Position numbers and translations under genes: made by a program. From an uncultured Thalassovita sp. (GTDB lineage Bacteria > Bacteroidota > Bacteroidia > Cytophagales > Flammeovirgaceae): a DNA stretch of 32,501 nucleotides. The stretch lies in NCBI GenBank assembly GCA_937129345.1, contig CAKZMZ010000379.1:1-32501 (forward strand). Reading direction: 5' to 3'. Within the stretch, counting starts at the first letter, position 1. Every line of letters begins with the position of its first letter. Below the pieces are notes generated by a model, which was not told where the DNA came from, did no database searches, and worked only from the letters and a program-made list of their open reading frames with translations. Positions 1,045 to 32,501 of the stretch are shown here, piece after piece.

Positions 1045-4000
1045 TCAAAACAAAGCCGAAAGTTGTATATTACCTGTATGTATCAACTTTCTATCGGGAG
1101 ACTTTCTGCCTATATAAGTACTCTGTAATTGCAGACCATTTGCTAGCCTTTTTACTAAGTTAAAGCGTATTGTATGGTTAATACCATTTCTCAGGCCTTC
1201 TAGCATTTCGTAACCAAGCGCAGACTGCTCATCGCCTGAGTACGAAATTTTATAGCTACTTAGCGAAAAATTGATTTGTTGATTTTTACCCATGTTACTT
1301 TTCAATTGCAAACTCAGTTCATTTATGCTACCATGCACATTTCTTTTTTCTTGGGCATCGCTCAAAGCATCATCCAAAGCATTTTTTTTCTTTAGCTGAT
1401 AATAGGCCGTAACCTTCCACTTAACATTGGGCTGAAAACTGATAGAAGGCTTTATAAACCAACTCTGCACTTGATAATTCTGATTCAGCATAAAATCAGA
1501 TGCTCTGAGTGTATTGCTTTTGCCTACACTCAGTTGCTGAGTAAAATCTCTATTGATCAACCATCTAGCATTCAAAGACCATTCTTCAGAATTAAAGGAT
1601 TCATAACCACCGGAGAGCAATTGTTTTCTCAAGTTCTTTTTAAAATGTAAATCAAACCCAAACTGATGGTGGTACCTCTGAAAGAATAGCGTACTGTGTA
1701 AAGCCATTACACCAGAAATTAAGTCCTGATCAGGTATAGAAGTAAAATAAGGCATAAACCTTTCTAAAAAATCATCACCACTGGTTCTGTATGCAGCGTT
1801 AAAAAGATTGGTATATGACCATTTAGCAATAAAATGCTTCCAATTGTTTTGCTCTAAAACATGCTGCTCTCTCCATGTTTGAGGTGCAGAAATCGATAGT
1901 TTGTGCCTCAAATTGCTCATATAAACCTGTAAAAATTCATTGGTTGGCACAAAAAATTTTGCGTAATTTCTCTCATCTGGCAGTAAGGCCTCAAAAAATT
2001 CGTCCAACTCCTGAATGCCATTATCGTTATAGTCGCGCCAAGTATGTGTACCCATACCATTGGCTACATTAAGAAAAATAAAATCCCTTTTCAATTCTCT
2101 GCCAGTACCTGTGCTAAAGGTCAAGTCTTGCAAAATAGCCTCATTAAATAGTCTTTGGTGCCATGTTGCTTGTCCACTGAGGGTGTTTTCTTCTACATTA
2201 CCTCTATCGCTTTGGGTCTCTAACTTTCTAAGGTTGAACTTAATTTTAAATCGGCTATTGCCTTTTGCTTTGTTTGCCATAAGACTGAGAGTGTTGGTGC
2301 GCCGTAGTAAAGTGCTGTCTTGGCTTATTGGCTGCTCATCTGCACGGATATTATAAGCTATTTTATAATCGAGCTTAGCACTGTCTAGGCTTTTTACATA
2401 AAAAGTATGTGCTTGGTAATTGCTTAGGCCACTACTCAATAAGGCTTGCCTGTCGAGATTAAAATTGTGTTGATTTATTTCATAAGTGTAGCCATGCGTA
2501 CCCCAACTCATACTGTAATTGGCATCGCTCTTTAGAAAACCCCAATGGGTATTTCTGTTGTTTTTTTGAATTTGAAGCAGTGTTGACTGTAAATTTAATC
2601 CTATTCTACCAAACTTTTGTACACTCCCGAACTGATGCTGAAACCCCTGTAAGAAATCCTCTTTTTTTCTGAATCCTAATTGATAATGGATTTCACTTTT
2701 GTCTTTACCTACAATCCCAAAAGAAAAATTGCCGATCAAATCTTGTAGTGTATCTAACTGTTGGCTAAAGATTCCCCAAGAGCGTTGAAACTCAATATCT
2801 CTAAATCGATCTACTTGCTTAAAGTCGGCGCTTAGCCTTTCCAAAGAAAGAGAAGTTTGCCATGTATGGCTTTCAGAAAAAGACAAAGGGTTCTTTTTGC
2901 TAGTAAAGCCAATTCTAATGGCCTGCCCTTGGTTATCTGCATCGTGTAAATCTGATAAGGCATTTTGGTCTTGGTTAGAGAAGGCAGCCTCTGCAAAAAC
3001 CTCTGTATTTTTGCCAAGGTGGTATTTGCCACCAACACTTAGCATCTGTTTTAAATTAGGTGCAGTAATTTTATTTCCCACCGTATAACTGCCTTGTGGT
3101 TTTCCGTTTTCAGGAGCTACCCAAACAAATTCACTCCCATTGTTATTGGCGTCGCCTTTTATATAATTACCATTGCCCAAACCTACAAATACAAAACTAG
3201 GCCTGTAGAAAGGACCATCTCCTGCCAATGCCCTTTCAAAAACAACATGGCTCTTTCCCTCATAAATGCTGTCTTTTTGAGTGTAAAGTATTTGGTTGGC
3301 ACTGTACTCGGTCACTTCTTCAAGTTGGGGCTGTACAAATATGGACTGAACGCTATCGCCGGCTTGCGATAGGGCCTCAAAAGCATTTTGACTGGCCGAG
3401 AAAGTAATTGGTCTGTTTTTTAGGTCTGCCTCCCTGTACCAATCTGCATATACTTCCATATTACCGTGCTTTTGGCTTAGGCCTAGGTTTGTTGCCAACC
3501 TTCCGTAATCTTGAATAACATATTCATACTCCACCCGAACTCTAGAAAAAGCATCGAAAATAATACTTGCATTAAACGTGATTTCTGACTGATTGTAATC
3601 TATGATGTAGTCGTTCTCAAACCCTCTTTGCAGCTGAGTACCATTTAAAAAAATCCGCTCTGAGCCAGCAATGACCATAATAAAGGGCTCATTGTTATTG
3701 CCCAATAATTTATAAGGCCCTAAAACACCATTTTGAACGCTAAGTTGCCTGCTCACAAACTGCCCTTTGGCCATAGCAACACCTGCATTTACAGCCAACT
3801 TCTTTTCTGAGAGCGTATCAACCGCAAAGGCTTTAAGTTTTGCTCCGAGAACTTGTTTCCTATATTTGAGAAAATAATTTTGCCTTTGATTGTTTAGGCC
3901 AATATCTCCTGCCTCCAAACTTCCATTCTTATGTCTTAACGCCAGATAAACCTTATCTATCTCTCGCAACTGTCGAGTGTTACCTTCCGGCTGAAATGGT

Positions 4001-4578
4001 ATTTCTTGATCAGAAAGTATAGCCTCCAATGTGATATCATCCGTGAGTTTTCCATCTAGTTGCAGATTGAGCGTAGAGTTAAAAGTAGCATCTTGCTGGT
4101 TGCCCATTCTCAATCCTCGAGTAATTACTCCGTGTTTTCTTATGCCGGGTGTGTGCAGGACCTCTTCCTCGCTTAATGGAGATTCGACCAAAACTGTGTC
4201 GAGTTCTTGATAAGTGATAGCGTATTTACCCGCATTATAGTCTTCTTGAGATCTTAAGGAAAGCGTATCTGAAAAATTAATCGGGAAAACATCAAAAGTC
4301 ACTAAAAAGGAATCTATATCTACCCCAATTTCCTTGTTGTAATTTACATATACTTTGTGCGCATCTATGCTATAATCGAGTTGAATGTCTGACTTAGATA
4401 TAATATGTGCAGGCCTTATTTCTTTAATGGCAATACTCAGCGGGTCAATAGTCAGTGAATCGGGCACAAAGTGGTGAACACCATATTTTACCCAAACAGC
4501 TTTTTGGGTGTTTATTTGTGCCTGGCAAAAATCGACAATTAAAAAAAATGATATATAAAAAAATAAGCCTTTAACCAT
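1045..4578 (-). CDS. Large predicted outer-membrane beta-barrel / cell-surface protein
   Basis: 1177 aa, N-terminal signal peptide (MVKGLFFYISFFLIVDFCQAQ), many alternating amphipathic beta-strands, motif ERIFLNGTQLQRGFENDYIIDYNQSEITF, EF-hand-like loop DYNDNGIQELDE. Confidence 0.75.
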   Translation of the reverse strand: MVKGLFFYISFFLIVDFCQAQINTQKAVWVKYGVHHFVPDSLTIDPLSIAIKEIRPAHIISKSDIQLDYSIDAHKVYVNYNKEIGVDIDSFLVTFDVFPINFSDTLSLRSQEDYNAGKYAITYQELDTVLVESPLSEEEVLHTPGIRKHGVITRGLRMGNQQDATFNSTLNLQLDGKLTDDITLEAILSDQEIPFQPEGNTRQLREIDKVYLALRHKNGSLEAGDIGLNNQRQNYFLKYRKQVLGAKLKAFAVDTLSEKKLAVNAGVAMAKGQFVSRQLSVQNGVLGPYKLLGNNNEPFIMVIAGSERIFLNGTQLQRGFENDYIIDYNQSEITFNASIIFDAFSRVRVEYEYVIQDYGRLATNLGLSQKHGNMEVYADWYREADLKNRPITFSASQNAFEALSQAGDSVQSIFVQPQLEEVTEYSANQILYTQKDSIYEGKSHVVFERALAGDGPFYRPSFVFVGLGNGNYIKGDANNNGSEFVWVAPENGKPQGSYTVGNKITAPNLKQMLSVGGKYHLGKNTEVFAEAAFSNQDQNALSDLHDADNQGQAIRIGFTSKKNPLSFSESHTWQTSLSLERLSADFKQVDRFRDIEFQRSWGIFSQQLDTLQDLIGNFSFGIVGKDKSEIHYQLGFRKKEDFLQGFQHQFGSVQKFGRIGLNLQSTLLQIQKNNRNTHWGFLKSDANYSMSWGTHGYTYEINQHNFNLDRQALLSSGLSNYQAHTFYVKSLDSAKLDYKIAYNIRADEQPISQDSTLLRRTNTLSLMANKAKGNSRFKIKFNLRKLETQSDRGNVEENTLSGQATWHQRLFNEAILQDLTFSTGTGRELKRDFIFLNVANGMGTHTWRDYNDNGIQELDEFFEALLPDERNYAKFFVPTNEFLQVYMSNLRHKLSISAPQTWREQHVLEQNNWKHFIAKWSYTNLFNAAYRTSGDDFLERFMPYFTSIPDQDLISGVMALHSTLFFQRYHHQFGFDLHFKKNLRKQLLSGGYESFNSEEWSLNARWLINRDFTQQLSVGKSNTLRASDFMLNQNYQVQSWFIKPSISFQPNVKWKVTAYYQLKKKNALDDALSDAQEKRNVHGSINELSLQLKSNMGKNQQINFSLSSYKISYSGDEQSALGYEMLEGLRNGINHTIRFNLVKRLANGLQLQSTYIGRKSPDRKLIHTGNIQLSALF

Positions 4579-8143: not shown

Positions 8144-8659
8144 ATGATACAGGTATTTAAAGGAGACATTACTACAGTTGAAGATGACGCTATTGTAAAT
8201 GCCGCCAATCCTTCTTTGCTAGGTGGCGGAGGTGTTGACGGCGCTATTCACCGTGTAGGTGGCCCCAGTATTTTGGAAGAATGCAAAGCCATTAGGGTAA
8301 AACAAGGCAAATGCCCTACTGGAGAGTCTGTAATTACCAATGCAGGAAAATTACCAGCAAAATACGTTATCCATACAGTTGGACCTGTTTGGGAAGGTGG
8401 GAATAAAAACGAAGCCGCACTGCTTGCTGCTTGTTATAAAAATTCGCTCGAGCTTTGTGTTGAACACAACATCAAATCCGTGGCTTTTCCTAATATTTCT
8501 ACAGGAATTTACGGATACCCTAAAGAAGAAGCGGCTGAAGTAGCCATTACAGCAGTAAAAGAATACCTTGATCAAAATAAGGAAATACAGATTGATGTGA
8601 GCTTTGTATGTTTTGATGAAGAAAATTATGAACTTTATCAAAAATTACTGGAAGCTTAA
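8144..8659 (+). CDS. Macrodomain protein (putative O-acetyl-ADP-ribose deacetylase, YmdB-like)
   Basis: [40 protein letters not shown]...[12 protein letters not shown]. The 27-aa ORF extension before this ATG does not look like part of the fold. Confidence 0.93.
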
Positions 8660-11600
8660 AACCTACTGCCAACAGCCAACGACAATTTTTTTGGCTTCAC
8701 TCTTCCATTTAAATTAAAAGTTTCGATAAGTATCGTATAATAACCAATCCCTACTTTTTCGCCATTGTCTTTGGTGCCATCCCAAGTAAAGAAGCCTTGG
8801 TTGGCCAAGCTTTGGTTTTGGATCAACTTTCTAACTATCCTTCCTTTTACATCATAGATAGTTACAGAAGCCATTGTGCCATTCTGTAAACAACCGTACT
8901 GAATTTGGGCAAAGTCGTCTTGCCCATCTAAGTCTGGGGTAATAATCGCTGGGGTAACCTTAAAACAATCATCGTCACTAAAGGTAGTTTCGCTATTTTG
9001 CGAATTGGTTTTTGCTGGAGTAGCAAAGCCCTCACTTTGAGCTGCCGAATGCCAATTGTCTCTTTCTTTTTCTGAAATTTTGTAGTCTATTCTTTCTAAA
9101 GAAACGCCTTCCTTATCTTCTAATAATGGGTTGTGCATATTCTCATCGTAATGGAAATCTTGTACAAACTCATCCAAAAAATTCAGGATTTTTACCTTGC
9201 CCTCATCATCATTGAAAGAGGGTAAGTTAACTTCTTGCAGCAGTGAATCAGGCACTGTAGGATAAAAGCTTTTAAATGCTTGGCGATCAGGCATAAGTAC
9301 CAGAAAGCGGTGTGGAGGAATGATAAAGACCTCATCCGAAATAGATTGCTCATCGCCTTTGCCATTGGCTACTTTCCAATTTTGCAGGTTAATGTATTTA
9401 TCTGAAGCATTGTAAATTTCTACAAAATCGACTCCCGAAGGTGGAGGATTAAAGAGGACTTCACTCAGCAAAATATCGTTTTCTGAAGCTGTTTCTGGTA
9501 ACACCAAAGATTGATTTGAAAATTCGGCAGCTGTATTTCCTGCACAGTCTTGTATGTTTTTAACGCTTATAGAATAAACTTTACCATTTTCTAGCGCACT
9601 GCTGAAATACAAATGTACCCTATCAAAAAAATAACCCGATTCAATTTCGATATAGGCCAATTCTACTGACGGACTTATTTGATAAGTAGCATTTTGTAAG
9701 GAGAGGCTATCCACATTTTCATTAAAAACCAAGACTAAGTGCGTAGAATCTATGGCATATACTTTTGTTAAGTATGGGGGGAAATTATCGGTCAGGGTGT
9801 CTTTAACTGAATTTTCTACGCCTGGGGTACCACCTTGTAGGCTAGCAGAAGCTATCCAGTTTTCTTCCCCACCACAGGGAAAGTAAACGTCTAACATCTC
9901 TAAGGAAAAACCTCCCGTTGCTTTTTCTTCTTGCCGATACCAATCATCAGAATAATGAACAAAATACACCAAACTGCCTTGTTGGTTTTTGATGACCAAA
10001 GGCTCACCTGTATTGTTTAAAGAAGGGAAACCTGAAACGGGCAAAGCACTTTCTCCAAAATGATGGGCATTGGAAGATGTACACAGCACACGATAACTTT
10101 TAGGCAAAATATAGCCTGAAAGCTGAGTAGTACTTGTGGCGTCGCTTAATGTACAAGCATTTAAATCTAGCAGTTGGTCAGTTGCATTGTAAATTTCGAG
10201 ATACTCTACTTCTGGTAAACCTGCGCTTGGTTCGGGGTCTGCCATAATTTCTGTGATGCGTATTTCGTGCAACTCCGGAAATTTGCCTTGTGCAATTGTT
10301 AAGGTATCTGTTAGCATGAGGTTGCCAAAGCAATCGCGTAAGTCTTTTACTATCAGCTCGTGCAAGCGACCTTTTGCGAGCACCTCATTAAAAGCTAGAT
10401 TCAAGGTATCTTTCCCAATCCATTCAATAGCCCTTGGGTTAATGGAATCATTTAATACAAATTGATTGCCTGAATCAACACTAAGGGTATCCATTTTTTC
10501 GGAAAAACTGAGTTGTATGACTTGGCCTCCTATGAGTTGATGACTTTGTATAAGAGGAAGGAAAGTATCTGGAATTTGTCCTGTTACAGAATTGAGCGCT
10601 CCTGGTGTGCCGCCCAAATTACTTGTAGAACTTCGCCAATTGTCTTTTTCTGTGCATGCATATTGTGCTTGAATCCTTTCAAGAGACCAACCGCCGTCTT
10701 TTTTTGAGGCTTCATGCCAATCATCAGTATAATTTACCGCATCCAATAATTCGCCTGCACTGTTCCATAATTTAATGGTTTCGCCACTGTTTGTAATGGA
10801 TGGGAAAGCTGCTAAGCCAATGGTTTCGCCAAACTCACTGAAACTTTCTCCAAAAGCATCATCACAAAGAATGAGAAATCCTCTTGCAGGAATCTCGCCG
10901 TTTCCTAATAGAACTTTCCTTGATTCATCCTCCAAATAAAGATGCAAAAGACTTAGAGGTTTGTCCATTGTATTGTGCAACTCAATATACTCAGCTTTGG
11001 GGAGAAGTTGTTGTGGCGTTGGATCTGCCATAATTTCACTAATGATGACCGCGCCTTTTTTAGGAACCTGTGGAAAGGAAAGTTCTTGACTGCTCAATGT
11101 CAAAATGTTTCCAGACAAATCTTTAAGCCGGCTTACACTCAACAAATAAGATTGACCAGGCCCAAAAGCTACATCAAATTGCAAAACAATCTTACTTCCA
11201 CTTATTAAATTTATTGAAGAAGGCATGATGCTTTGCCCGCCAAAGTTGAGTTGGTAGTGGTTATATGCCTCTGCGGTTTGTTCCAATAAAGACTCATCAA
11301 AATATAAAGTAATTTCATTGAAATCAGAAAAATACGCTTTTTCTAAAACAGGTGGGGTTTTGTCTAGCTTTAAAGAAAAATTTTGGGCGGGAGAAATGGT
11401 ACCATTGAACTGTAGTTGAGGCTGTACTTCTAAATTATAAACGCTATCTGCCAATAACTTTTCTTGAAAAAGTAAAGTGATTTGACCGCCAATTTCATCG
11501 GTGAAAACTGATAGTGGGGTTTTGTTGCCATTCAACAAAAAATGTGTATTGCTCAAACTGTCTCTTAACAAAGGTTGCTGGTAACGCAGCACTATTTGGT

Positions 11601-14037
11601 AAGCGTCTTTAATGTAGGCGGCTGAGATATTCTCTACATATTTAAAACTTTCTTGCAGATTTAAAGAAAAATGGCCATTTCTGCCGCGTAGGCTGTCAAT
11701 TTTCAAATGGTAGGTCCTGTCTAATTGCCATTCATGCTTAAAATAAAGCGCTGCTTTGTGCCCTGTTACACAAATGCTATCGGGCAAATAGGTATGATCT
11801 ATTTGAAATGCGCTTGGCCCTAACTGCCAGCTGGTATCCACTTCCATCGAAAACTCTAACAAAATACTATTTTTAGATAATGCTTGAAGGTTGGCGATTT
11901 GCGGCCTAAGGTTATCTAAATAAAAAGTATCAATACTTAACATCACATTACCTTGAAAATCGGCTATGTTTTCTAAAGTAAAAAGCAAGGAGTCTGACGA
12001 TACTAAAGTGTCAAAAAACAGCCAATATTTTCGGGTACTTTCGTAAAAAGGTAGTATCTGAGTCGGATGCACTCCACTTGCCGAGAAATGCACCGTGTCT
12101 TGTTGGATTTTTAAATTAGGCGGTTCATTAAAAGCGATGAGTAATCGGTTATTGGGAAATGCCTTTACTGACTCAGCAAAAGGTGCACGCACATCGTAGT
12201 AAAATTTTCTTGTTCGCGTATTCATGGTATTCCCCGCCAAATCAGCCACGTCGGTAACACGCAAGCTATATTCTTGCTCAGATGCTAAGCTTTTGTCAAA
12301 ATAGAGGTAAACAATGCTTGAATTAGCAGTATCAACCTCTATAGTCTTAGGATAAGAATCGCCTAGGTCATTCCTTAGTCTATAGTTATTTACAATTTGT
12401 GCCGTTAGAGTATCTACTGCTTCTGTAAACATGACTTTTACTACAGAATCTGAAATAGGATATACCGCATTTCTACTCGGTATAGAGGGTTTTTCCGTAT
12501 CGTAAACAAAGGCGTCAGACCAAGCGCTAAGCATTGTATTTTGATAGAGATCCTGTAGATTACTTATCTCTAAAGTCAATGTTTCATTTTCTACAAAGTT
12601 CTCGGCAAAAAACAGCTTTACAGACTGAGCGCTCTCGTGAATAATATTTACAGGATGGATATCTGCTGTGATTTTATAATTATCAGGATTTGAAATACTG
12701 GCAGCATTCATCACTTCATCAAAAGCAACTGAAAGCGTATTGCTATTTGCAAAAGAGAAATTTGCCACAGAAGGCGGCCAACGGTCTTTAAAAACGAATG
12801 ACTGATTGAGCGTATCAGAAAAAAGGTTGCCTTCCAAGTCGCTTATATTTGTGGCAGAAAGCTCATATATTTGATTTATTTCAAAAGTAGTATCAAAATG
12901 CAACAAATAACTATGCGCACTATCTCTGGTAATGTGCAAAGGATTTTTGCCACTGCCTTTTAGCCATAGTTTGTTCGATATCAGGCTGCTTTCTTGCAAT
13001 GCTTCATCAAACTGGATAATGATCACGCTGTCTTGAATGCCCTTTACATTTAAAATTTGCGGTGGCGCTAAATCAGGGGCTGAGTAAATAAAAGTGGTTT
13101 GAATAGGCTGATCAATAGGCAAGGCATTTCCTGATGTATCTGCAACTTCCAAAATTTTTAAGTTTTGCTCCAAATCGGTGGTAAAACCTACATCAAATTG
13201 AAGTATTACTTTTTTTTCCTGTACCTGCACTGAAGATGGCAGGATAACATCGTTTAGTAAATAGTTATCTTTCTCTAATGCCAATAAGCTATCTACCTTT
13301 GCAGAAAAAGTGAGTTGGATACTTTGCTCATTCAATACCACTAGCGAGTCGAGGTATGGGTATTTTATTAATGAAAAATCATCAAAGAAAAACTTGTCTT
13401 CTCTAGCACCTGAGGAGAAAAAAATCTGGGCACCAAAAAAGCCATTTACTTGACTGGCAGTGTAAGTAATCTTTCCTTGACTTTTTTCATTGACCCAAAC
13501 CTCCCAATTGTTGGCCTGATCTTTTTTAACCATTACATGAGCAAATTCAAAAGTAGCTGCTTTGCTAATTTTTTCACTTTCTAATAAGATTTCGTCTCCA
13601 TTTTTTAGATGGTAAAGTTGAAAGGTGAGAGAGTCCTCATTGGCCACGGGCTTGGCTTCTAAAAAAAGCCCATTGGCTGTTAGATTTAAGTCACTTTCTT
13701 CTGAAATTAAATAAATCCTTGTCTTGTTTCTTCTAGATAAAGAAGAAGACAGGCTCCCAAAATCTAATTTCACTTTAAAGGTCCATTTAAAAACATAAGC
13801 CTGCGCCGGGTCAGCAATGGCTGTACTGATCCAGCATTGACGCGTACCGCTGCCCTTGTCAAATTGAGCTTGCAGTTCACTCATCATAATCACAAAATCT
13901 CCTGTAACGCCACTTGAACTACCTCTATGCCAAATAACATCTCCATCGTCTAAGTTTATTCGATTAAAGTTATCTTGGATTTGGGCTAATAAAAATGCTG
14001 ACTGAAAGCAAAAAAATAAGCTAAAAAAATACCGCAT
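8656..14037 (-). CDS. Giant secreted multi-domain protein: Ig-like (SbsA-type) repeats, three lamin tail domains, FlgD/CHU_C-like C-terminus
   Basis: Preferred start 14037 gives signal peptide [19 protein letters not shown] (ORF extends to 14097). Repeated Ig-like units with '...YxLxVxxLxDLxGN'; three LTD units ([68 protein letters not shown]); C-term [11 protein letters not shown]...[14 protein letters not shown]...[25 protein letters not shown]. Confidence 0.88.
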
Positions 14038-14123
14038 AATTAAGTAGTTAGCATTACTCATTAAGGGGTATTTTAGTTGTTTTATTGTTTGGTACAAGAG
14101 AATTTTCCTGGTTTTCTAGAGCA

Positions 14124-19314: not shown

Positions 19315-22300
19315 TTAGAAGTTCATGCCAATTTTATCGGGCAAATACATATTTATGGAGATACCTTGGTCTGCTTCTGAGTGTATCTTTATTTTGCCAT
19401 TGTAACTTTCGAGCACTTTGCCAAGTTCATAAAGTTCTTTTACGGGACCTTCTTGCACCTCGCCTGAGATAAAACCTTCTGTCGCTTTTTTCAATAAGTT
19501 TTCTGAAAAATTTTCGCTGATAGCTACACTTACAATTTTATCTTCTTTTTGTGCTGTAATCATAATTTTGCCAGAACCGTTTTCGCTACCAGACTGCAAA
19601 ATCTCAAAAACGGTATCGAAAACTTTCTCGAGGAACTGCTTTTTGCAAACAATCCAAGTATCGTTTTTAAATTCTTTTACTACAGATAAATCTGCTGCCA
19701 GTGTTGCCTTATAATTTGCAATGATATTCTCTAAAATGTCATTTGCATTAATGAGCTCAGGCTCACCTTCAAAGTTGTTTAGCAACTCAGGTACAACCAC
19801 CGTAGATTTTAATTCTTTAGAAGTTTGATGGCTTTCTTCAATTTTCTGCGAGCTTTCTTGTTCTGCTCCCTGCGGTTCTTTCGAAATTTGCTCTGTAGCG
19901 TGCTTTAACTGAGCTTCTTGCTCTTGTACTTTTTCTTCATACTGAGCAATAGTTGTTTTCTCTGCTGATACCTCTTTACTCTCTTTTTTTACAGAAAGAA
20001 TAAATATTGGATGCGCATCAGAGCTGTTGCCATTAATACTATTAAAGGTTACATATAGCCTCTGCCCAAAATGATTATAGAAAAAATCGCTTTGCTCTAC
20101 CTCTGGACTATTAATAAATTTTTTATAAATCTTTTGCAGCTCTGACTGCTCTTTTATTGCATTTTGTATATCTAAGCTGTTTTGAACGGGCTTTTGTAAA
20201 ACCTCTTCCAAAGTTGAGTTTTTATAAAGAATGTCACCGTTTTTTAGCAAAAAGGCAATACCTGTATTCTCTAGGTTATTTAACCAAGTAAGCGCTGCCT
20301 CCCCAAGTACATGCTCGTTTTTTTCCGTTGCTTGACCTAATATCACAATTTCAATAACTGCTCCTTTAAAACTGGAGAAATTGAGTGCGTTTCTAACGCT
20401 TATCTGGCAAGAAAGCCACTTTCCTTCTTTATCTATTATTTTTCCCTCAAGCTGTTTAAAAGCAGATTTTTTATCTTTTATTTTCTGCAAAGTGTTTTCT
20501 AACGCTAAGTGTGCGTTTGAATGGATTCTTTCTCGAAGGTTGCCTTTTAATTGATAGCCCAATCGCTCTTTACCAATTGCATTTACATATTTAATATTGG
20601 CCTCGAAATCTGAAAAGGCTAAGATATTGCTAGTTCCGCTTAGTAGTGCATTGTAAAACCTAGCTCTAAATGCAATGTCGGTTTCTTTTTCTGTTGTTTT
20701 TTTGAGCGAATGCTGAAATTGTACGAGATAAGCAAGTGTATTATTATCCTTTGCAATAGCGCTAGTATTTATCTCCACTTTTTGCCAAGCACCATTTTTA
20801 TTTTTTAAATGGATGGTTGTTTGCAAAGTATCTTCAGGGGTACTTTCAAGGTAATCGAGGTTATTTTTTATGGCATCTTGTTCTTTAGGATGAACAAAAT
20901 CTATAAAAGACCTTTGGTGCAAATCATGTGTGCTATAACCTAAAAATTGCTGTATTGAGGAATTTGAAAATGATAAACCTCCATTATTGTCTAATAATAA
21001 TATTGGTGTTTCCTGCTTTTCAAAAATACGAGCGAGCAAGTCTTGATCAAACTCAGGTTTTTTATCCACGGTAAAATCGCTCTTCTTGGTAAACTTGATC
21101 ACAATGCCATTTACCAACTCATTTTCAAGCATATTTACTTGTTTGAGAATTACCTTTTCCCAATTGCCATTTTTGTGTAGATAACTTATCTCGCCTCTGC
21201 TTTGGAAAGACGGATAATGCTTTACCCGATCAAAATTTTCGTGTACTTTTGCAGTATATTCAGGTGCTACAAAATCGAAAACATATTTATCAATCCTGCT
21301 CTCTTTGGTATAACCAAAGTGCTTTTGCATGTTATCGCTTACAAATTGAATCTTACCTTCTTCATCAACTACAGTAACCACTTCATCTGTAAGGTTGAGT
21401 AAATCGGCAAGCAGCTGATGCTTTTTCTGCATTGAAGCGGCCATTTCTAAACGTTCTTCTATAAGCCTTAACTCTATGGCAATTTCTCCATGACCTTCAT
21501 TTTCTGCTAATGGATAGAAGATACAATCGTAAGCTACTATTTCGTTGCTGTGGTTTCTAAAAGGCAATGCATTAATATAGTGCCTTTTATTGGACCGCTT
21601 TGCTTGTTCTATTGCCTGCTCAAGCTGCTCATAGCTACCCTCAGGCACAAAAGAAAGAATATTGGAGGCATTTGCAGCACTGCTGGATAAACCGAAAAAT
21701 GACTCTGCACTTTTGCTTACAAAACAGATATTGTTCTCTCGATTTACCGTCAAAAATAAATCCTCAGATTTTTCTATCAACTGATAATGTATACCCTTCT
21801 CATTGGTGGTTTCTTTAGCTTTAACAGCACTTAAAACAAAGGCAATAACTTTGGCACTTTCATGTAAAACTTTTAAGCTGATCGTCAAAAGTTTGTCTTC
21901 ATTTCTATTGTCAAATATAGTTTGTCCGTTGTTCCTCAGCGCTTCAAGTTGTGTATCAGTGAGTAGTTCAGAAAACTCAATTTTAGAAAAGTAATCATCA
22001 AATGTACCATTGCTTTGCCATATAGTGGATTCTTCCATTTCGGCCAAACTTATGGTATCTTGATCAATCGGGCTATTTAGCTTAAAAATTGCCGTGGCAA
22101 ACTGTTCGTTTTCAGTGGCTTCTGTCAAAAGAAACTCCCTTCTCTCTAACTCAGCTATTTTCTTTTGCGATAGATGCGCAAGAAGTTCTGCTTCATATTT
22201 GGGCAATAAAGCTTTTGCATTCTGCAATTCTTCATCTTGCCAAGTGCTTTCTTGTGGCTTGGCAAGTGTTAGCATGCCGATTACAATTCCCTGCTGCTTA

Positions 22301-22857
22301 ATCGCTAAAACCAATATATTTTTTTGCTCATAAGGAAAAGCTTCTTCTAGTACCTCCTTATCCTCAGGCCTTAAGCCTATGGCATCAGTATTTTGCAAAT
22401 TGCTTAGTAACGTAGCAGAAGTAGGGTATTCGATATTTTTGGAAAAATCCTTATTTAAATCCAAAAAAACTTTTTCTGTAGAATTGTATTCCCATAAGAC
22501 AGTTCCCTCTACATCGCTTAAATACGCATCAATATTGGCTAGATCTTGGGCACTGCCTTCAGGCACTTTAACCGCACCATGTTGCTTTTTATTTAAAAGC
22601 TCATTTTCTTGAGCCTGCCTTACCTCTTTCTCTCTTTCTTTTTCAGATGAATTGAGAAGTATCCAAACTAAAAATACGATAACAAGTCCTGTGGCAGATG
22701 CCAATAAAGAACTTAGTGCTATCTGATTAGGATTTTCTAAGTAATTGGCATAGTTGTCATAGACAATCCAACCGGTGGCTAAAATTGCCTGAAATGCCAA
22801 TACAAAAATCAATAATTTTCTATACGATTTACTTTCAGAATTTTCTTGTTCCGACAT
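19315..22857 (-). CDS. Membrane-anchored multi-PAS (PAS/GAF-like) sensor protein with degenerate HATPase-like C-terminus
   Basis: Two N-terminal TM helices; about five PAS-like units (e.g. TDEVVTVVDEEGKIQFVSDNMQKHFGYTKES, KQETPILLLDNNGGLSFSNSSIQQFLGYSTHD); C-term ends LGKVLESYNGKIKIHSEADQGISINMYLP, like the end of HATPase_c. Confidence 0.85.
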   Translation of the reverse strand: MSEQENSESKSYRKLLIFVLAFQAILATGWIVYDNYANYLENPNQIALSSLLASATGLVIVFLVWILLNSSEKEREKEVRQAQENELLNKKQHGAVKVPEGSAQDLANIDAYLSDVEGTVLWEYNSTEKVFLDLNKDFSKNIEYPTSATLLSNLQNTDAIGLRPEDKEVLEEAFPYEQKNILVLAIKQQGIVIGMLTLAKPQESTWQDEELQNAKALLPKYEAELLAHLSQKKIAELERREFLLTEATENEQFATAIFKLNSPIDQDTISLAEMEESTIWQSNGTFDDYFSKIEFSELLTDTQLEALRNNGQTIFDNRNEDKLLTISLKVLHESAKVIAFVLSAVKAKETTNEKGIHYQLIEKSEDLFLTVNRENNICFVSKSAESFFGLSSSAANASNILSFVPEGSYEQLEQAIEQAKRSNKRHYINALPFRNHSNEIVAYDCIFYPLAENEGHGEIAIELRLIEERLEMAASMQKKHQLLADLLNLTDEVVTVVDEEGKIQFVSDNMQKHFGYTKESRIDKYVFDFVAPEYTAKVHENFDRVKHYPSFQSRGEISYLHKNGNWEKVILKQVNMLENELVNGIVIKFTKKSDFTVDKKPEFDQDLLARIFEKQETPILLLDNNGGLSFSNSSIQQFLGYSTHDLHQRSFIDFVHPKEQDAIKNNLDYLESTPEDTLQTTIHLKNKNGAWQKVEINTSAIAKDNNTLAYLVQFQHSLKKTTEKETDIAFRARFYNALLSGTSNILAFSDFEANIKYVNAIGKERLGYQLKGNLRERIHSNAHLALENTLQKIKDKKSAFKQLEGKIIDKEGKWLSCQISVRNALNFSSFKGAVIEIVILGQATEKNEHVLGEAALTWLNNLENTGIAFLLKNGDILYKNSTLEEVLQKPVQNSLDIQNAIKEQSELQKIYKKFINSPEVEQSDFFYNHFGQRLYVTFNSINGNSSDAHPIFILSVKKESKEVSAEKTTIAQYEEKVQEQEAQLKHATEQISKEPQGAEQESSQKIEESHQTSKELKSTVVVPELLNNFEGEPELINANDILENIIANYKATLAADLSVVKEFKNDTWIVCKKQFLEKVFDTVFEILQSGSENGSGKIMITAQKEDKIVSVAISENFSENLLKKATEGFISGEVQEGPVKELYELGKVLESYNGKIKIHSEADQGISINMYLPDKIGMNF

Positions 22858-24363: not shown

Positions 24364-24966
24364 TCAAATTTTCCTCCACTCCAAGGTATTAAGCATATGC
24401 ATCATATCCACTTTAACGTATTCGATTACTGGTTTTAATGAATCGTTTTTTGTAGAAGTGGGAAAGTATAAAGCAGCCCTAAAAAAGTTTTCAACTGAAT
24501 CGGTAGCATAGTACTGAAATTGACTAGGCACATCGCCCTCTAGCTCAAAAACCACTGCTGTAATGCCTTTTGGAGTAACCGTTACATAATCGTCTATGGC
24601 AGTGGCTTTAACATGATGCTTTGTAGTAAGCCGATGCGAATCGTTAGACATCTCTATCAGTGAATCGAGGTTGTTATTTACCTCTTTATAAGATATGGTC
24701 AACTTGGCATCAAACTTAGGATAAAGTATTTCAATCCAGTAGGGTTCTGTCATAAAAGATTGATCGGGTACAATCTTGGCGTGCTTCGAGTATTCAAAAT
24801 TATAGGGCAGCGGTGTATCTAGCGCCGTATAGTTGTGTGAGGGCAGTTCTATACGGTGAAAGCCTTTTGGTTTAGGTAAATAAGCTTGATCATCGCCACA
24901 AGCTGCAAGTAAAAAAATTATAATAGCAGGGATGAAAGTGCTATAAGAATCACTTTTAATACGCAT
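24364..24966 (-). CDS. gldD: Gliding motility lipoprotein GldD
   Basis: Lipobox LLAAC; YLPKPKGFHRIELPSHNYTALDTPLPYNFEYSKHAKI; MTEPYWIEILYPKFDAKLTISYKEV. Confidence 0.92.
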   Translation of the reverse strand: MRIKSDSYSTFIPAIIIFLLAACGDDQAYLPKPKGFHRIELPSHNYTALDTPLPYNFEYSKHAKIVPDQSFMTEPYWIEILYPKFDAKLTISYKEVNNNLDSLIEMSNDSHRLTTKHHVKATAIDDYVTVTPKGITAVVFELEGDVPSQFQYYATDSVENFFRAALYFPTSTKNDSLKPVIEYVKVDMMHMLNTLEWRKI

Positions 24967-24993: not shown

Positions 24994-26076
24994 TTAATCT
25001 GTAAGAGCACCTGAGCCTTCTTTCATTTTCTCTGCATTGTCTGCAATGCGGAGTTTTTCTATGAAATCTTCTATCTCTCCATTCATTATGCTCGGCAGGT
25101 TGTACACTGTATGATTGATCCTATGGTCAGTAACTCTACTTTGCGGAAAATTGTATGTTCTGATTTTATCTGAGCGGTCGCCACTGCCCACCATAGATTT
25201 ACGTGCTGCACCAACTTCCTCATTTTGTTTCTGAAGCTCTATTTCGTAAATCCTTGCTCTAAGTACACTAAGTGCTTTATCTAGATTTTTATGTTGAGAT
25301 TTTTCATCTTGACATGAGGCCACCACACCTGTTGGAATATGCGTTAACCGCACAGCAGAGTATGTGGTGTTCACAGACTGTCCGCCCGGGCCTGAGGCAC
25401 AAAATATTTCCTTTTTTACATCAGACATATTGACCTCGACCTCCACATCTTCTACTTCTGGCAATACCGCTACACTGGCCGCTGAAGTATGTACCCTACC
25501 CTGTGTTTCAGTTGCAGGCACACGTTGTACTCTATGGACGCCTGACTCAAATTTTAATTTGCCATAAACATCCTCACCTGAAACCGAAGCAATAATTTCC
25601 TTATAACCACCCGAAGAACCTTCGGTTACGTCCATAATGCCCACCTTCCAGCCTTGGGTTTCGGCAAACCTTTCGTACATCCTAAAAAGGTCTCCCGCAA
25701 AAATAGCTGCCTCATCTCCTCCTGCTCCACCTCTTATTTCTAGAATAATGTTTTTGCTATCGTTAGGGTCTTTAGGGATTAGCATGGTTTTTAAATCGCT
25801 TTCTAGTTTTGCACATTTTTCTTGCAAAATTTCAAGTTCTTCTTTGGCCATTTCCCTAAACTCAGTATCTTTTTCAGTTTCTAAGAGCGATTTAGTATTG
25901 GCGATACCTTCTTTAATCTCTTGGTACTCGTGGTAATGCTTAACTATTTTATCTAGCTCCTTGTATTCTTTATTTAGCTTAGCATATTTTTTCATATCTG
26001 CCATGGTTTCTGGCAGTACTATCAACTTACTAACTTCTTCGAAGCGCTCCTTTATTTCTTCTAATTTATTAATCAT
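24994..26076 (-). CDS. prfA: Peptide chain release factor 1
   Basis: GAGGDEAAIFAGDLFRMYERFAE, VPATETQGRVHTSAASVAVLPE, catalytic GGQ in CASGPGGQSVNTTYSAVRLTHIPTG. Confidence 0.98.
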   Translation of the reverse strand: MINKLEEIKERFEEVSKLIVLPETMADMKKYAKLNKEYKELDKIVKHYHEYQEIKEGIANTKSLLETEKDTEFREMAKEELEILQEKCAKLESDLKTMLIPKDPNDSKNIILEIRGGAGGDEAAIFAGDLFRMYERFAETQGWKVGIMDVTEGSSGGYKEIIASVSGEDVYGKLKFESGVHRVQRVPATETQGRVHTSAASVAVLPEVEDVEVEVNMSDVKKEIFCASGPGGQSVNTTYSAVRLTHIPTGVVASCQDEKSQHKNLDKALSVLRARIYEIELQKQNEEVGAARKSMVGSGDRSDKIRTYNFPQSRVTDHRINHTVYNLPSIMNGEIEDFIEKLRIADNAEKMKEGSGALTD

Positions 26077-26078
26077 AA

Positions 26079-26984
26079 CTATCTATTTCTTCCTTTTCGG
26101 TTATCTACAATCTTCTGCCCTTTTTCATCCCACTCCCTTAAAACATAAGGTTCAAATTCATCTTCATAAGGCCTGTTCCTGTTCACGTATTGCGTCTCTT
26201 TTTTATTGTTTGAGCGCTCTCTGTCGTAATACTCGTACCACCTGCCCACTTTTATATCGTCTCTGTACTCACCTTTGGTTTTTATCCTTCCACTCTCATA
26301 AAAGGCCAAATATACACCTTCTTTTTTGCCATATTGAATAGGAATGACCTCTTTTACTTTTTTTTGATTGATATCGTAATAAGTAATTTCAGAATTTTTT
26401 GGATGGCCACGGTAAAAATACTCTTTTTCTAAGAGTTCCATACCATTTCCATATTTTTCCCACCTGCCATGCTTGGTTCCTTTGTAAAAAATACCTCTGT
26501 CTACTAAGATACCATCTATAGTTCTTTCATAAGCGCCGTGTAAAAGGGGGCCCATTTCTGGTTTATATCTGTCTGGGTAAGTGCTCTCTATTTTTTTCCT
26601 CTTAGCATCATAAAAATACACCTCGTGCACGTACATGTTTGGCTTCACGGGTTCTTTTAGTACATGAATTTTTCTAAATATCACGTTCCGCCTATTCCTA
26701 CTGTATTCTTTGGTGTATCTTACTTTGGTTTTTATGCCATAAAATACTTTTTTCTTACGCTTCTTTTTTTTTCGTTTCTTTTTGTCCTCTTCTATAGCAT
26801 AAGGGTTTATCTCAAGAGTTGGCTTAAAATTAGGATTAGATTGAACCAGTAAGGTGTCTTGTTCTTGCTCTTTTTTATTTTTCTTCTGTGCAATCGCCTT
26901 ATTTAAAAAAGCAGAAGAAATCATTATTATAAGAAGCAGATATAAATATTGAAAGCGGTGTATTCTAAAAAAATATAACTCCAT
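26079..26984 (-). CDS. Secreted YwqK/MORN-like repeat protein with polybasic tract
   Basis: Signal-peptide-like N-terminus; repeats such as YKGTKHGRWEKYGNGMELLEKEYFYRG and YESGRIKTKGEYRDDIKVGRWYEYYD. ORF extends two codons further to 26990. Confidence 0.75.
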   Translation of the reverse strand: MELYFFRIHRFQYLYLLLIIMISSAFLNKAIAQKKNKKEQEQDTLLVQSNPNFKPTLEINPYAIEEDKKKRKKKKRKKKVFYGIKTKVRYTKEYSRNRRNVIFRKIHVLKEPVKPNMYVHEVYFYDAKRKKIESTYPDRYKPEMGPLLHGAYERTIDGILVDRGIFYKGTKHGRWEKYGNGMELLEKEYFYRGHPKNSEITYYDINQKKVKEVIPIQYGKKEGVYLAFYESGRIKTKGEYRDDIKVGRWYEYYDRERSNNKKETQYVNRNRPYEDEFEPYVLREWDEKGQKIVDNRKGRNR

Positions 26985-27050
26985 TATCAATGCTGTGTCT
27001 CTAAAAAATACTTCTTGCTGTAGAGTATGCTATTTTGCTCTCTTAACACA

Positions 27051-27153: not shown

Positions 27154-30100
27154 TTAGAAGCCATCGTCATCAAAGCCATCATCGTCGTCGTCATCTTCAT
27201 CATCAGCCACTTCTTCCTCTTCTTGTAGAGGCTGATCATCAATCACATCACCAAAAATATCTGCATCGATCAACTCTTCTTCTACATCTTCTACTGCACC
27301 ATCTTCTGGTATATATAAGTCTAGTATATCTTCTACGCCTAAATAATTCATCCTAAAGCTGCTTATAAAGCCCAAAAAGTTATCGTTTGATGCCCTTATT
27401 AGCCCTGGGCCACTTTTTTTAACTGCCAAGTTTGCGTTAAAGCCAGCATTAGAAGATAGCGCCCTTACACCATCTCGCCCAAAATCGAAATAAAACCAGT
27501 TTTCCTCATCTGCCATTATAAATAGTTTTGCTTCGTAGTCGCCTTCAGTTTTTGGGATTTCTAGATAACCTGTTACTAGTGAATTTACATCCGTTTTGAA
27601 CACATTGCCAAGGCCCATATCAACATCTGCATAAAAGCTTCTAAACTCTGTAGACCATTTTAGATTGACTTTATTGAGCATAATACCTGCATCAAAAAAG
27701 TCTGAGAGTTTCTCATTGCCATTTCTGTATTTTGAAAGATAATCGTCAAGCTGTTTTTCATTAAAAATCAAGGACAATTGCTCTTCCATTTCTTCATATT
27801 CCTCAAATGGTGCGATGAGTTCTTCCACATTGTCATAAATATCTAATCCTAAATCTGAAGCACTACTTGGAGCATCTGGTATCTTAAAATAGATGCTGGA
27901 GTTGATTTCGTATGATTCTTCTTCAAAATTTCCGCTGCCTCTACCTGCAGCGACTACCTCATAAAACTTGGTGTTTTCTACAAGGCTTAAATTGCCCTCA
28001 AAAGATACTTTTTTGCTATCAAAATTGTAAACAAACCGATCTCCTTTAGTTTCAGGATATTCCAATTTCTCGGCAGAAGCAACTATATAGTCTTTGGTTT
28101 CTTCATCATAAACAAGCCTTCCGCTTCCTTGAAATACCTTAAAATCATTTACCCTATCTCTATCAAAATGTACGAGTGTGGGGTAAAAGTCTCGGTCAAT
28201 TCTGCCAATGAACAAGCCCGTGGCAAGTTTTGTAGGAAAGCCAGCCACTTTGAGATTTTCGTCAACATTGATCACACCATGAGTTTCTTCAGTGGAGGAA
28301 CCATAAGCAAACCACGCATTTTCTTCGCGCTCTACATCTAAGGAAACCTCACCTTCAAATTTTAGGTATTTCTCAGAATCGAACATAGTAAGCTTTCCCT
28401 TATAGAGAAAACCCGGCAAGAATTTAAATTCGTCCTCTTCTTCGATAAAAGCTTCTGCCGTGGTAATGAACTCAGAGGCTTTGTCTTCACCTTTATTGGG
28501 CTTGATATCAAACTTTTCGAACCTAATTTCATAGGGCTCTTTTATTCCCATGGTGTATTGGTAAGTAGCCTCACCCTCAAATTTATTTCTCGAAATTATA
28601 TTTATGTCTGCATCTGTAAGCGTGTGGTATTTATTGAATGCGTTCATTTCTATCGTAGCGTTCTCGAGTTCGTCTATTTGTGCATTTTCACGAACCAACA
28701 CTTTACCACTATCTGGCAAAATGCGCACATTGGCAACTGTAATATAAGGTACTCCCTCAAGATTTAGGATGTGCTCATTAAGATCATAAACTGCGTCACT
28801 GGCAAAGATTTCGAGCGAATCTTGCCTTCTATTGTTAGAGGTAAATTTTCCTAGACCTAAATCACTATCGCCGTCAACACTCATTACCAAGGTATTTTGA
28901 TCCAAATTCCAGATTACTTGGCTTATGTTGGTCTCGTATTCAATAAATGGGAGTGTAAAACTGTTTTCGCCTTCCACCTCTGAGGTTACCACAGCGGCTC
29001 TTTGCCCAAGATCGTACTCTACTTTTACATTTTCTCCAGAAAGACCTGGAGTATTTGGGTCGTCTGATTTAATGATAAAAGATGAATTATTAGCCACGTA
29101 TTTAGAGGCTTCCATATTAAAGTTATCTGATATATTGACAGACCTCGGTGTTTCTATTTTGCCCTTGCCGTCCAAACCGCCTTCGGTCAGTGCCAATGTA
29201 CCTTCAAACTGTGTAGTGGTATCATAAATTTCAAAAGGCTCATCTTTAATATTGGTCAATAGCATACTGTCGCTGTTTACCATCCAACGCATCTCATACT
29301 GCTTCATCTTTACAGAAGGATAGCTAGTACCATTAAAATCGCCTGCTTCTATTTCGCCGCCCATACCTTTTGTATTTACCGAATCAGAGTAAAAAATAAA
29401 GTCTTTTGACTCGAAGGAACCAGAGAGATAATCAATCTTTCCTTTTCCTCTTATCCCTTTGTTATTTAGACTAATTTCATTGTAATAGGTAGCTTTCCCA
29501 TTATAGAGCGGCACTCCATTAGGATCCATTTGCCTTTTAAACCCAAAAGAATAATCGGGTTGTATAGAGATGTTCTGTTCAAAATCTGGAAAAATACCTT
29601 CTGATTTAAAGGTACCATCAAAGGTGATTACATCTGTATTATTATCGTTCAGACTGTCTATTACGAAAGGAGGGATATCGAAATGTATCCTGTGGTCATA
29701 AGCGCCACCTAAAATTTCTGGACCATCAAAATAAATGGACCCACCTTTTTTCGCATCCAAAATAGGATAGCGCTCCATACTTCTTCTACCAGATTTATTT
29801 TTTGGGTCAGAGATGAAGAGAGTACCTCCCGTTTGCACGATATTGTTGGCCAATTCTCGCTTTACACCATCATCATGGGTAACTAAGATGCCAATAGAGT
29901 CTATTACATCAAGATTTACGTTAAAGCTATCGTAATTGTACACAAATTCGGGCCCTCTAAATACGAAATTACCCGCTCGCATCTCTCCACCAAATGAAGT
30001 ATTTCTACCATCTTTTAAGTTTACCTTACCGTCTTGTGGCTTTACCAATACTTGCATAGAATCACTGATCATAAACTTGTCTACGCCTTCAAGTTTAAAA

Positions 30101-32130
30101 TCTTTGCCACTTAGGGCCACCGTAAGGTTTGCCTTATCTGTGGTTCTTGAATGCATGATCATGTTATCATAGTCAACTCCCCTTCTGCCTTGCATAGCGT
30201 AAACGTAAAGCTTTGCCTTCCTTTTAATGTCAATTAAGCCGGTTGTAGAATTGAAATCGATATAGCCTCTTTTGCTCAGTTCCATCATAGCACCTTTTAC
30301 CACTTCGGGATTTTGCTTAAGTGTTTTGGCCATATCGCTATAGTAAAAGGTATTTTTCCTAATCTTGTTAGAGTAGCCCACTACCATTTGTAGAGGATGG
30401 AAATTATAGTTTCCTTTTAAGGCAATGAAGCGGTACTTATCAAAGTAATCTTTCGACTCTACTACCAAGGGTATGCGTTCCCTAGCGTTAAGTATCTTCA
30501 TGTCAAAACTATCGGCTTCTACACTCCACTCAATAAATTCAGCAGAGATATTTACATCGTTTCTCGTATCTATAAACTGCGATATTTTATAAGCATCCTT
30601 ATCCCTTCTGGCCTGTAGCAATTTGTCTTTTGTGTGGTATTTTAGCTGAACGGCTGGATGCGAGATGGAATCTTCGGCGCTGTAATGGATTACAAATTCA
30701 GATTGGGGACTGTAAAGAAGGGAATCTTCATAAGTAAAACCCTTGTTAGAACGGGCTGTAAACTTATTTCCACTATTGCCATCGTACCTGATCATAGATT
30801 GCCCCCCCTGATAAACCGATTGGCTTTTGAATTTTTTGCCCTCAAGCGTAACGCCACCCTCATAGGTTACATCTTCTACAAAATCTTCAATAACTATATT
30901 GGCTAGGTAAGATTTAAAACGTGGATACTGCGCTTTGTCTGGCTTTGTATTATGTACATGGCTCTTATACTGAAGAATACCGGCAATGGGTTCTTCAGAG
31001 ACAGAATTGTAAGTGAGTTCCGCTTTTTCCGCTATAAATTCAGGATTGTGGAAGTCGAAGCTAAACTTACCCAAATCTGCATAAACTTCGTCTTCGGCAT
31101 AGCCAACGTTCTTCCAGCTTATTTTTCCGCTTTCTGCAACTATGGTATCGTTAGCAAGCATTAGAGAAGCCTCAATGCCTTTGAGATCTAAAGTGTCGTA
31201 GACAGAAATTAAGGCAAAATCAGCTTCTTTGATAGCTATAAATGGCCCTTTTATCTCTGGCAAAAGAGGTTCAGGTATGGTATAAAGGGCCTCAGTAGTT
31301 AAGGAAATGTCCTCTTCTTCAAAACCGCTGCTAGAAACAGTATCTTCCTCGCTCCAACTGTCTTCTGCGGTACTCCAACCGTCATCAGACCAACTATCTC
31401 CTGCATCTTCTGCCGTGCCCCATCCATCATCTGAGGAACCCCACCCATCGTCTCCTGAACTCCAACCGTCATCTCCCCAACCATCATCGCTTTCTGTTTC
31501 TTCTTCCTCTACTAAAGTGTCGTCAAACCACTCTTCTTTTTCCTCTTCTTCCTCGCCAAGTAGCATGCCTTCTTCTTCTGGCAACTCTTCTGTAGAGGCA
31601 TACAACTCACCTTGCATTAAATCGGGATTAGGAATATGCTCAAAAGTGAAACTTCCTGAGGTCATGACTACGCTATTAAATCGAGAGGCATAGACCGTAT
31701 CTGAGCTCAAAAAGGCGTGTGACTGTTTTAAAAAATTCGCTGTTACTTCCCTTTTATAAAAAGATGCTGTGGTATCGGCCACTTCTAAGAACCGGGTAAG
31801 GTCCGCACCACTCATCCCTCTAAAATTTCGAGCATTATCTAAAGACTCAAAAAATCTTATAAAATGCGGCCTAATTGCCAATCTCTTGGCATACATACTG
31901 CTTAGCACATTAAAAACATGGTCTTGCTGCTTGGTATCCAAACTGGTATAGACAGACTCAAAAGCGCTCACTACCGTGTCTGGAGACTCCGCATCTGGTT
32001 TTTGGAAGATACCGTTCAAATCAACCATAAGGCTGTCTTTTTCTTCAAACGGAACGCGGCTAAATTGGGCATAAAGTTGCCCATTAAGAAGAATCGTTAA
32101 TAGTACTAGGAACAAATAATCTCTTTTCAT
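27154..32130 (-). CDS. Giant secreted beta-rich protein of unknown function with acidic DDGW/DDGF repeats
   Basis: Signal peptide MKRDYLFLVLLTILLNGQLYAQ; low-complexity SDDGWGDDGWSSGDDGWGSSDDGWG...SDDGW; ~1300 aa of beta-strand-like repeats; C-terminus DDEDDDDDDGFDDDGF. Confidence 0.8.
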   Translation of the reverse strand: MKRDYLFLVLLTILLNGQLYAQFSRVPFEEKDSLMVDLNGIFQKPDAESPDTVVSAFESVYTSLDTKQQDHVFNVLSSMYAKRLAIRPHFIRFFESLDNARNFRGMSGADLTRFLEVADTTASFYKREVTANFLKQSHAFLSSDTVYASRFNSVVMTSGSFTFEHIPNPDLMQGELYASTEELPEEEGMLLGEEEEEKEEWFDDTLVEEEETESDDGWGDDGWSSGDDGWGSSDDGWGTAEDAGDSWSDDGWSTAEDSWSEEDTVSSSGFEEEDISLTTEALYTIPEPLLPEIKGPFIAIKEADFALISVYDTLDLKGIEASLMLANDTIVAESGKISWKNVGYAEDEVYADLGKFSFDFHNPEFIAEKAELTYNSVSEEPIAGILQYKSHVHNTKPDKAQYPRFKSYLANIVIEDFVEDVTYEGGVTLEGKKFKSQSVYQGGQSMIRYDGNSGNKFTARSNKGFTYEDSLLYSPQSEFVIHYSAEDSISHPAVQLKYHTKDKLLQARRDKDAYKISQFIDTRNDVNISAEFIEWSVEADSFDMKILNARERIPLVVESKDYFDKYRFIALKGNYNFHPLQMVVGYSNKIRKNTFYYSDMAKTLKQNPEVVKGAMMELSKRGYIDFNSTTGLIDIKRKAKLYVYAMQGRRGVDYDNMIMHSRTTDKANLTVALSGKDFKLEGVDKFMISDSMQVLVKPQDGKVNLKDGRNTSFGGEMRAGNFVFRGPEFVYNYDSFNVNLDVIDSIGILVTHDDGVKRELANNIVQTGGTLFISDPKNKSGRRSMERYPILDAKKGGSIYFDGPEILGGAYDHRIHFDIPPFVIDSLNDNNTDVITFDGTFKSEGIFPDFEQNISIQPDYSFGFKRQMDPNGVPLYNGKATYYNEISLNNKGIRGKGKIDYLSGSFESKDFIFYSDSVNTKGMGGEIEAGDFNGTSYPSVKMKQYEMRWMVNSDSMLLTNIKDEPFEIYDTTTQFEGTLALTEGGLDGKGKIETPRSVNISDNFNMEASKYVANNSSFIIKSDDPNTPGLSGENVKVEYDLGQRAAVVTSEVEGENSFTLPFIEYETNISQVIWNLDQNTLVMSVDGDSDLGLGKFTSNNRRQDSLEIFASDAVYDLNEHILNLEGVPYITVANVRILPDSGKVLVRENAQIDELENATIEMNAFNKYHTLTDADINIISRNKFEGEATYQYTMGIKEPYEIRFEKFDIKPNKGEDKASEFITTAEAFIEEEDEFKFLPGFLYKGKLTMFDSEKYLKFEGEVSLDVEREENAWFAYGSSTEETHGVINVDENLKVAGFPTKLATGLFIGRIDRDFYPTLVHFDRDRVNDFKVFQGSGRLVYDEETKDYIVASAEKLEYPETKGDRFVYNFDSKKVSFEGNLSLVENTKFYEVVAAGRGSGNFEEESYEINSSIYFKIPDAPSSASDLGLDIYDNVEELIAPFEEYEEMEEQLSLIFNEKQLDDYLSKYRNGNEKLSDFFDAGIMLNKVNLKWSTEFRSFYADVDMGLGNVFKTDVNSLVTGYLEIPKTEGDYEAKLFIMADEENWFYFDFGRDGVRALSSNAGFNANLAVKKSGPGLIRASNDNFLGFISSFRMNYLGVEDILDLYIPEDGAVEDVEEELIDADIFGDVIDDQPLQEEEEVADDEDDDDDDGFDDDGF

Positions 32131-32252: not shown

Positions 32253-32501
32253 CTATCCTTTCTCGAAAACAAGGCTCGCCCAGTTTTCGTGCACTTTGCA
32301 TTTAGTAAATTTTAAACGAAGAGAAATTGCTTTATTGACAATCAGGGGAATATCTTCTGGATGAAAGCCACTTAGCACAAGTATACCCATGTCTTGAAGC
32401 AGGCCATTGTAAACTCTTAATTCTTCTAAGATTACATTGCGGTTTATATTGGCCAACACAATTTGATATTGGGCCTCTTTACCAATTTGAGCCGCCATGC
32501 C
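32253..32501 (-). CDS. prmA: Ribosomal protein L11 methyltransferase, C-terminal part; truncated at window end
   Basis: YQIVLANINRNVILEEL...GILVLSGFHPEDIPLI, the N-P/I-N-R and C-terminal part of PrmA; frame open to the window edge. Confidence 0.85.
   Translation of the reverse strand, partial: GMAAQIGKEAQYQIVLANINRNVILEELRVYNGLLQDMGILVLSGFHPEDIPLIVNKAISLRLKFTKCKVHENWASLVFEKG

Follow-up and report, generated by a model that had tools for sequence, protein, structure and literature searches.

A nameless giant exported protein of Bacteroidia with a predicted LptA/LptD-like fold and lineage-specific acidic tails

What does a secreted protein of 1658 residues, matched by no described family, do in the cell envelope? 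The question is raised by a gene on the minus strand of a 32,501-nucleotide stretch of Flammeovirgaceae DNA (hereafter the window, meaning the whole stretch that we analysed). The open reading frame runs from an ATG at 32130 to a stop codon at 27154-27156. Searches of Pfam, NCBIfam and PDB sequences with the 1658-aa protein gave zero matches at E ≤ 0.001, and our incomplete coverage of the literature turned up no obvious description of the family. The gene can be divided into the following parts, listed with its upstream neighbour.

27154..32130, minus strand: whole gene, a 1658-aa exported envelope protein (ORF, and homologues in 54/58 order and 325/395 class genomes)
32068..32130, minus strand: type I signal peptide, residues 1-21, without lipobox (sequence)
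31621..32064, minus strand: N-terminal domain, residues about 23-170, probably helical (alignments; conserved class-wide)
31276..31608, minus strand: acidic linker rich in Trp, residues 175-285; its five DDGW units lie at 31375-31488 (restricted to Cytophagales; missing in class-level homologues)
27295..31275, minus strand: predicted all-beta core, residues 286-1612, LptA/LptD-like by fold comparison (AlphaFold and Foldseek)
30445..31113, minus strand: beta unit A, residues 340-562, homologous to unit B (hhalign)
30190..30438, minus strand: inserted winged-helix module, residues 565-647 (secondary structure of the model, Foldseek, weak wHTH profile matches)
28855..29523, minus strand: beta unit B, residues 870-1092, duplicate of unit A (hhalign)
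27295..27693, minus strand: C-terminal folded domain, residues 1480-1612, in which Trp1492 and Trp1545 are near-invariant (alignments and AlphaFold)
27157..27294, minus strand: acidic tail, residues 1613-1658, probably disordered, ending DDDDDDGFDDDGF (C-terminal motif conserved in Cytophagales)
32253..32501, minus strand: 3' end of upstream prmA, given for context (Pfam PrmA, E 1.5e-4)

The signal peptide, MKRDYLFLVLLTILLNGQLYA, is of the cleavable Sec type, with cleavage between the A and Q of LYAQ, and no lipobox was found among 99 homologues checked. A scan past the signal peptide revealed no second hydrophobic or transmembrane segment, and cysteine is absent from the mature part of the protein. 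A preliminary description had proposed a secreted, long beta-rich protein with five DDGW units near the N-terminus, a DDGF acidic C-terminus and prmA as a neighbour. These observations stand: the ORF and Sec-type signal sequence were confirmed, the DDGW units were located at the positions listed, two DDGF units occupy 27157-27183, two AlphaFold models agree on the beta-rich region, and the prmA neighbour is real. The description had overlooked the winged-helix module, the N-terminal helical domain and the internal duplication.

Homologues were detected in 54 of 58 genomes of the order Cytophagales; apart from the nearest relatives, most share about 27-34% identity with the 1658-aa protein. In a scan of named genome contigs the carriers were again Cytophagales, among them Flexithrix dorotheae, Flammeovirga, Fulvivirga, Ohtaekwangia, Chryseolinea and many Cyclobacteriaceae MAGs. 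A first phylum sample (14/297) suggested a narrow family, but this was overturned by the class sample, which reached many more families and in which 325/395 genomes and 161/197 genera carry the family, a broad distribution with repeated absences. At class level a genome usually encodes one member, 1470-1570 aa long and alignable with the 1658-aa protein over its full length, and most sampled Bacteroidia have a single copy per genome. The family is absent from the sampled members of four families (f23, f24, f26 and f30) and from one genus whose family's other members carry homologues. A profile with distant members, used without a positive control, found nothing in 23 genomes lacking the family, and OstA is present in all of these. 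The distribution suggests that an old protein was lost repeatedly, rather than that a new one arose in a narrow group. The families that lost it may include the usual laboratory models, which would account for its having been overlooked so far. This class-wide, nameless giant envelope protein, and not chiefly its DDGW repeats, is our main finding, and is more important than was first thought: an exported protein of 1500-1660 aa that most sampled Bacteroidia encode once, and that no family model covers, leaves a large gap in our picture of the envelope of the phylum.

Three homologues deserve separate mention. The closest named one (L053, PBYL01000165.1; 72% identity) comes from a MAG labelled Thalassovita, an alphaproteobacterium, and the MAG probably belongs to Flammeovirgaceae and was mislabelled or misbinned. 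At G370:C42:308196-317482 two copies lie head to tail in a tandem duplication, each with an in-frame stop within the match. The homologue at L120 is split into frames of 404 and 1146 aa, reflecting a frameshift or an assembly error.

To gain insight into the architecture we turned to structure prediction. An AlphaFold2 model of residues 286-1470, based on 68 family sequences, had a pLDDT of 86.5 and a pTM of 0.53, a value commonly this low when a long chain bends; a second AlphaFold model, covering residues 1100-1612, had a pLDDT of 88.2 and a pTM of 0.83. Both are mostly beta and predict a long all-beta protein. When the predicted structure was compared with solved structures using Foldseek, 11 PDB matches had E ≤ 0.001, nine of them to LptD (E 1.9e-6), and a segment of the model matched LptA (2r19_B) over 129 columns with rmsd 4.2, target TM 0.56, probability 1.00 and E 0.096. 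LptC and apolipoprotein B100 (apoB100) were also among the matches, a chorein (VPS13-like) protein was the top match in the viral library, and with the C-terminal model (1100-1612) LptD and LptA again appeared near the top of the list, at weak E-values. Global TM-scores amount to just 0.06-0.14 of the query, long stretches superpose with a large rmsd, and the human beta-propeller protein LRP2 reaches similar E-values, albeit at low probability, so the fold match is carried mainly by the LptA-sized segment. On these models an LptA/LptD-like groove is the best-supported architecture, although it is not proven.

Two further features mark the core. Strand spacing repeats before and after the winged helix, and hhalign aligned residues 340-562 with 870-1092 over 113 columns (probability 81%, E 1.2e-5); since unit A matches unit B by profile, the core contains an internal duplication. 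Between the strands, residues 565-647 follow the order H-S-H-H-S-S-H by DSSP of the model, that of a MarR-like winged helix, and Foldseek matched this region to MarR, Hpr and SarA with probabilities of 0.98-1.00. Weak profile matches were obtained to SarA, Sul12a, Fe_dep_repress, TrmB and transcription factor E, all of them winged-helix proteins; where coordinates were reported, the match lies on or close to the same residues. The winged-helix region is conserved in all aligned members.

The acidic segments show a different pattern of conservation. The protein contains seven DDG[WF] units, compared with 0.08 expected from 2000 whole-protein shuffles (maximum 2), and the five DDGW units of the linker compare with 0.02 expected when the linker alone is shuffled. 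Asp and Glu make up 39% of the linker (175-285) versus 16% of the core. Among Cytophagales the linkers vary from 25 to 148 residues and contain 5.0% Trp versus 0.6% in the core, mostly following Asp, Glu, Ser, Gly or Asn (72 D-x-W motifs versus 23 in shuffles). At the other end, of the 78 Cytophagales homologues whose C-terminus is complete, 68 (about 87%) finish in [DE]G[FW], on tails of 6 to 335 residues. The last four positions (n = 76) read D-D-G-F, with Asp at −4 in 58, Asp at −3 in 65, Gly at −2 in 68 and Phe at −1 in 71. Because many loci are close relatives, we clustered them at 60% identity; [DE]G[FW] ends 10 of the 17 clusters and Phe or Trp ends 13, the motif being missing from some deep Cytophagales branches. 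Both linker and acidic tail are absent from the class-level homologues examined outside Cytophagales, in which the N-terminal domain joins the core directly and the protein ends soon past the last folded domain. Within Cytophagales both joints have been lengthened.

The suspicion that the tails are lineage-specific noise is thus half right: they are confined to the lineage, but they are not noise, since they are strongly conserved inside the order. We also considered DGF as a genome-wide sorting tag. In a census based on the DNA pattern, no other real ORF of the same genome ended in [DE][DE]GF; the other such frames are spurious (35 and 7 codons), counts did not exceed those of a reversed control, and the idea was rejected. 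Given that the motif recurs within the order and is absent both outside it and from other real ORFs, C-terminal [DE]GF probably serves as a docking motif that this lineage acquired on top of an ancient core. By analogy with acidic-aromatic C-termini of other proteins, the tail is most simply read as a peptide that docks onto one partner; Ca2+ binding is possible. In SSB-type docking peptides a short acidic motif at the C-terminus ends in Phe. The giant protein likewise carries its acidic motif at the extreme C-terminus, ending in Phe past a variable, probably disordered linker, but it is unrelated to SSB and exported, and its motif is DDGF, with none outside Cytophagales. Such a short C-terminal motif provides a direct handle for fishing out the partner.

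The results above establish the family and where it occurs, its export signal, the conservation of the tail, the duplication and a predicted fold; to them we add a proposal for function. We suggest, with a probability of roughly 0.4, that the protein is a single-copy core envelope component of Bacteroidia that acts as a periplasmic conduit or bridge of the LptA/LptD type for lipid or glycolipid and that carries docking tails in Cytophagales. It would be secreted by Sec, free of any membrane or lipid anchor, and would fold into a long beta-jellyroll or groove with the winged helix inserted, capped by helices at one end and by a small beta domain at the other. The groove would hold the acyl chains of a lipid or glycolipid and pass this cargo between envelope partners, parallel to the ordinary Lpt and TAM systems, while the winged helix and end domains may serve as binding modules. 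In Cytophagales the Trp-rich acidic linker and the C-terminal acidic-Gly-Phe peptide would have been added, most likely as docking motifs, and the docking partner would have a pocket for an acidic-aromatic C-terminus. Periplasmic residence, the lipid cargo, bridging and its direction, docking and the partners are what we infer here. A fuller version, in which the protein forms a class-wide trans-periplasmic bridge apart from Lpt and TAM for lipid or glycolipid, clamped to a partner in Cytophagales through the acidic-Gly-Phe C-terminus together with the Trp-acidic linker, is tentative and on balance doubtful. Besides the loose global fold match, several points count against a conduit: a winged helix would be unusual in one, entire families that retain OstA lack the gene, and sequence profiles show no kinship with OstA. 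Should the protein conduct lipid, it would join Lpt and AsmA/TamB as another bridge between the membranes. It may belong, so far unrecognised, to the machinery of outer-membrane construction.

The groove could instead hold beta-strands or lipid anchors. The protein would then be a TAM-like periplasmic scaffold or chaperone for assembly of outer-membrane proteins or lipoproteins, with no lipid conduit. Beta-groove proteins such as TamB have been tied to both assembly and lipid transport (PMC12045153, PMC11014939), and the acidic-aromatic tails resemble protein docking motifs. However, no TamB or AsmA profile matches the family (24 members compared) and the genome already encodes two TamB proteins, in frames of 1569 and 1539 aa; we regard this alternative as unlikely, though still worth weighing. 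The same comparison lends no support to the AsmA-like architecture raised in the preliminary description. AsmA, TamB, YhdP and the eukaryotic bridge-like (chorein/RBG) proteins share with the giant protein a similar size and presumably a similar groove principle, and the viral chorein match fits this likeness. Unlike AsmA/TamB/YhdP, the giant protein lacks both the AsmA/TamB profile match and an N-terminal membrane helix, and the two TamB genes are separate from it; the AsmA-like proteins of Escherichia coli are anchored in the inner membrane (PMC12045153).

Less probable still is a role on the outside of the cell, as a structural beta-scaffold or surface protein in adhesion, gliding or a sheath. 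The protein is large, secreted and beta-rich, and a gliding gene lies three genes downstream in the window, among the following neighbours.

26079-26990: secreted MORN-like protein, downstream of the giant-protein gene
24994-26076: prfA, downstream of the giant-protein gene
24364-24966, minus strand: gldD, gliding motility lipoprotein (TIGR03512, E 5.8e-65), three genes downstream

This arrangement of a MORN-like secreted protein, prfA, gldD and pgl occurs in few loci only, and with GldD-like neighbours in just 5 of 80 loci we rejected the neighbourhood as evidence for gliding. Moreover, neither Pfam nor NCBIfam recognised a T9SS C-terminal domain in the giant protein, and its collinear, class-wide conservation at one per genome is unlike that of a surface adhesin.

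A giant LptA acting as an obligate subunit of LPS transport is largely excluded. LptA and LptD are the best fold matches, and the protein shares with LptA/OstA (the periplasmic LPS bridge; OstA_2 in Bacteroidota) a signal peptide and possibly, judging by the LptA-matching segment of the model, a beta-jellyroll fold. It differs from the OstA of its own genome in length (1658 aa versus a 574-aa frame) and from LptA/OstA in its winged helix and internal duplication, and it is absent from many OstA-bearing genomes. A separate OstA_2/LptA gene is present in its own genome and in 27 of 28 relatives, and OstA is kept in all 23 genomes without the giant protein. Among 24 members neither Pfam OstA profile (PF13100, PF03968) matched at E ≤ 0.5, and hhalign of the family against the OstA_2 family gave a probability of 1.3%, so kinship was rejected. 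The suggested OstA/LptA-like architecture holds as a fold resemblance but finds no support as family membership. LptD, the outer-membrane LPS translocon, gave the best Foldseek E-values with both models, but these models have no evident outer-membrane barrel and fit LptD loosely across long stretches (rmsd about 40). The giant protein is an additional player beside Lpt and TAM.

Least likely of all is a winged-helix regulator, in which the whole protein or a fragment cleaved from it would sense the envelope and bind DNA, since the conserved region and its MarR/SarA/Hpr fold matches (probability up to 1.00) sit in a protein with a signal peptide and an envelope-type fold, we know of no route back to the cytoplasm for an exported protein, and winged helices also serve as protein-binding modules.

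Beyond the window, prmA is a conserved neighbour, present in 59 of 80 Cytophagales loci and directly upstream in most of those 59, as it is in most class-level loci; its identity was established by Pfam in the one example tested. The gap to the giant-protein gene is often within about 15 bp, and tpiA precedes prmA. The acyltransferase gene plsY lies downstream in 10 of the 19 loci at class level, and also in some Cytophagales, Fulvivirga among them. We considered a plsY operon as evidence for lipid work and rejected it: plsY gave no match in six tested genomes that carry the giant protein, and since carriers can lack plsY altogether, the link lends no support to coupling with lipid synthesis. 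G035, G200, G239, G094, G231 and G102 are near-complete Bacteroidia genomes without detectable plsY, and glycerol-3-phosphate acylation there must therefore use another enzyme.

Other large genes lie elsewhere in the window. A 1177-aa secreted protein without a Pfam or NCBIfam match is encoded at 1045-4578 (minus strand). The 1813-aa product of 8656-14097 (minus strand) carries a CHU_C type IX secretion signal along with lamin-tail (LTD) and Big_5 domains, and is likely a secreted surface protein. At 19315-22857 (minus strand) a 1180-aa multi-PAS protein, in which Pfam recognises only PAS and sensor domains, ends in a kinase-like and apparently degenerate C-terminus.
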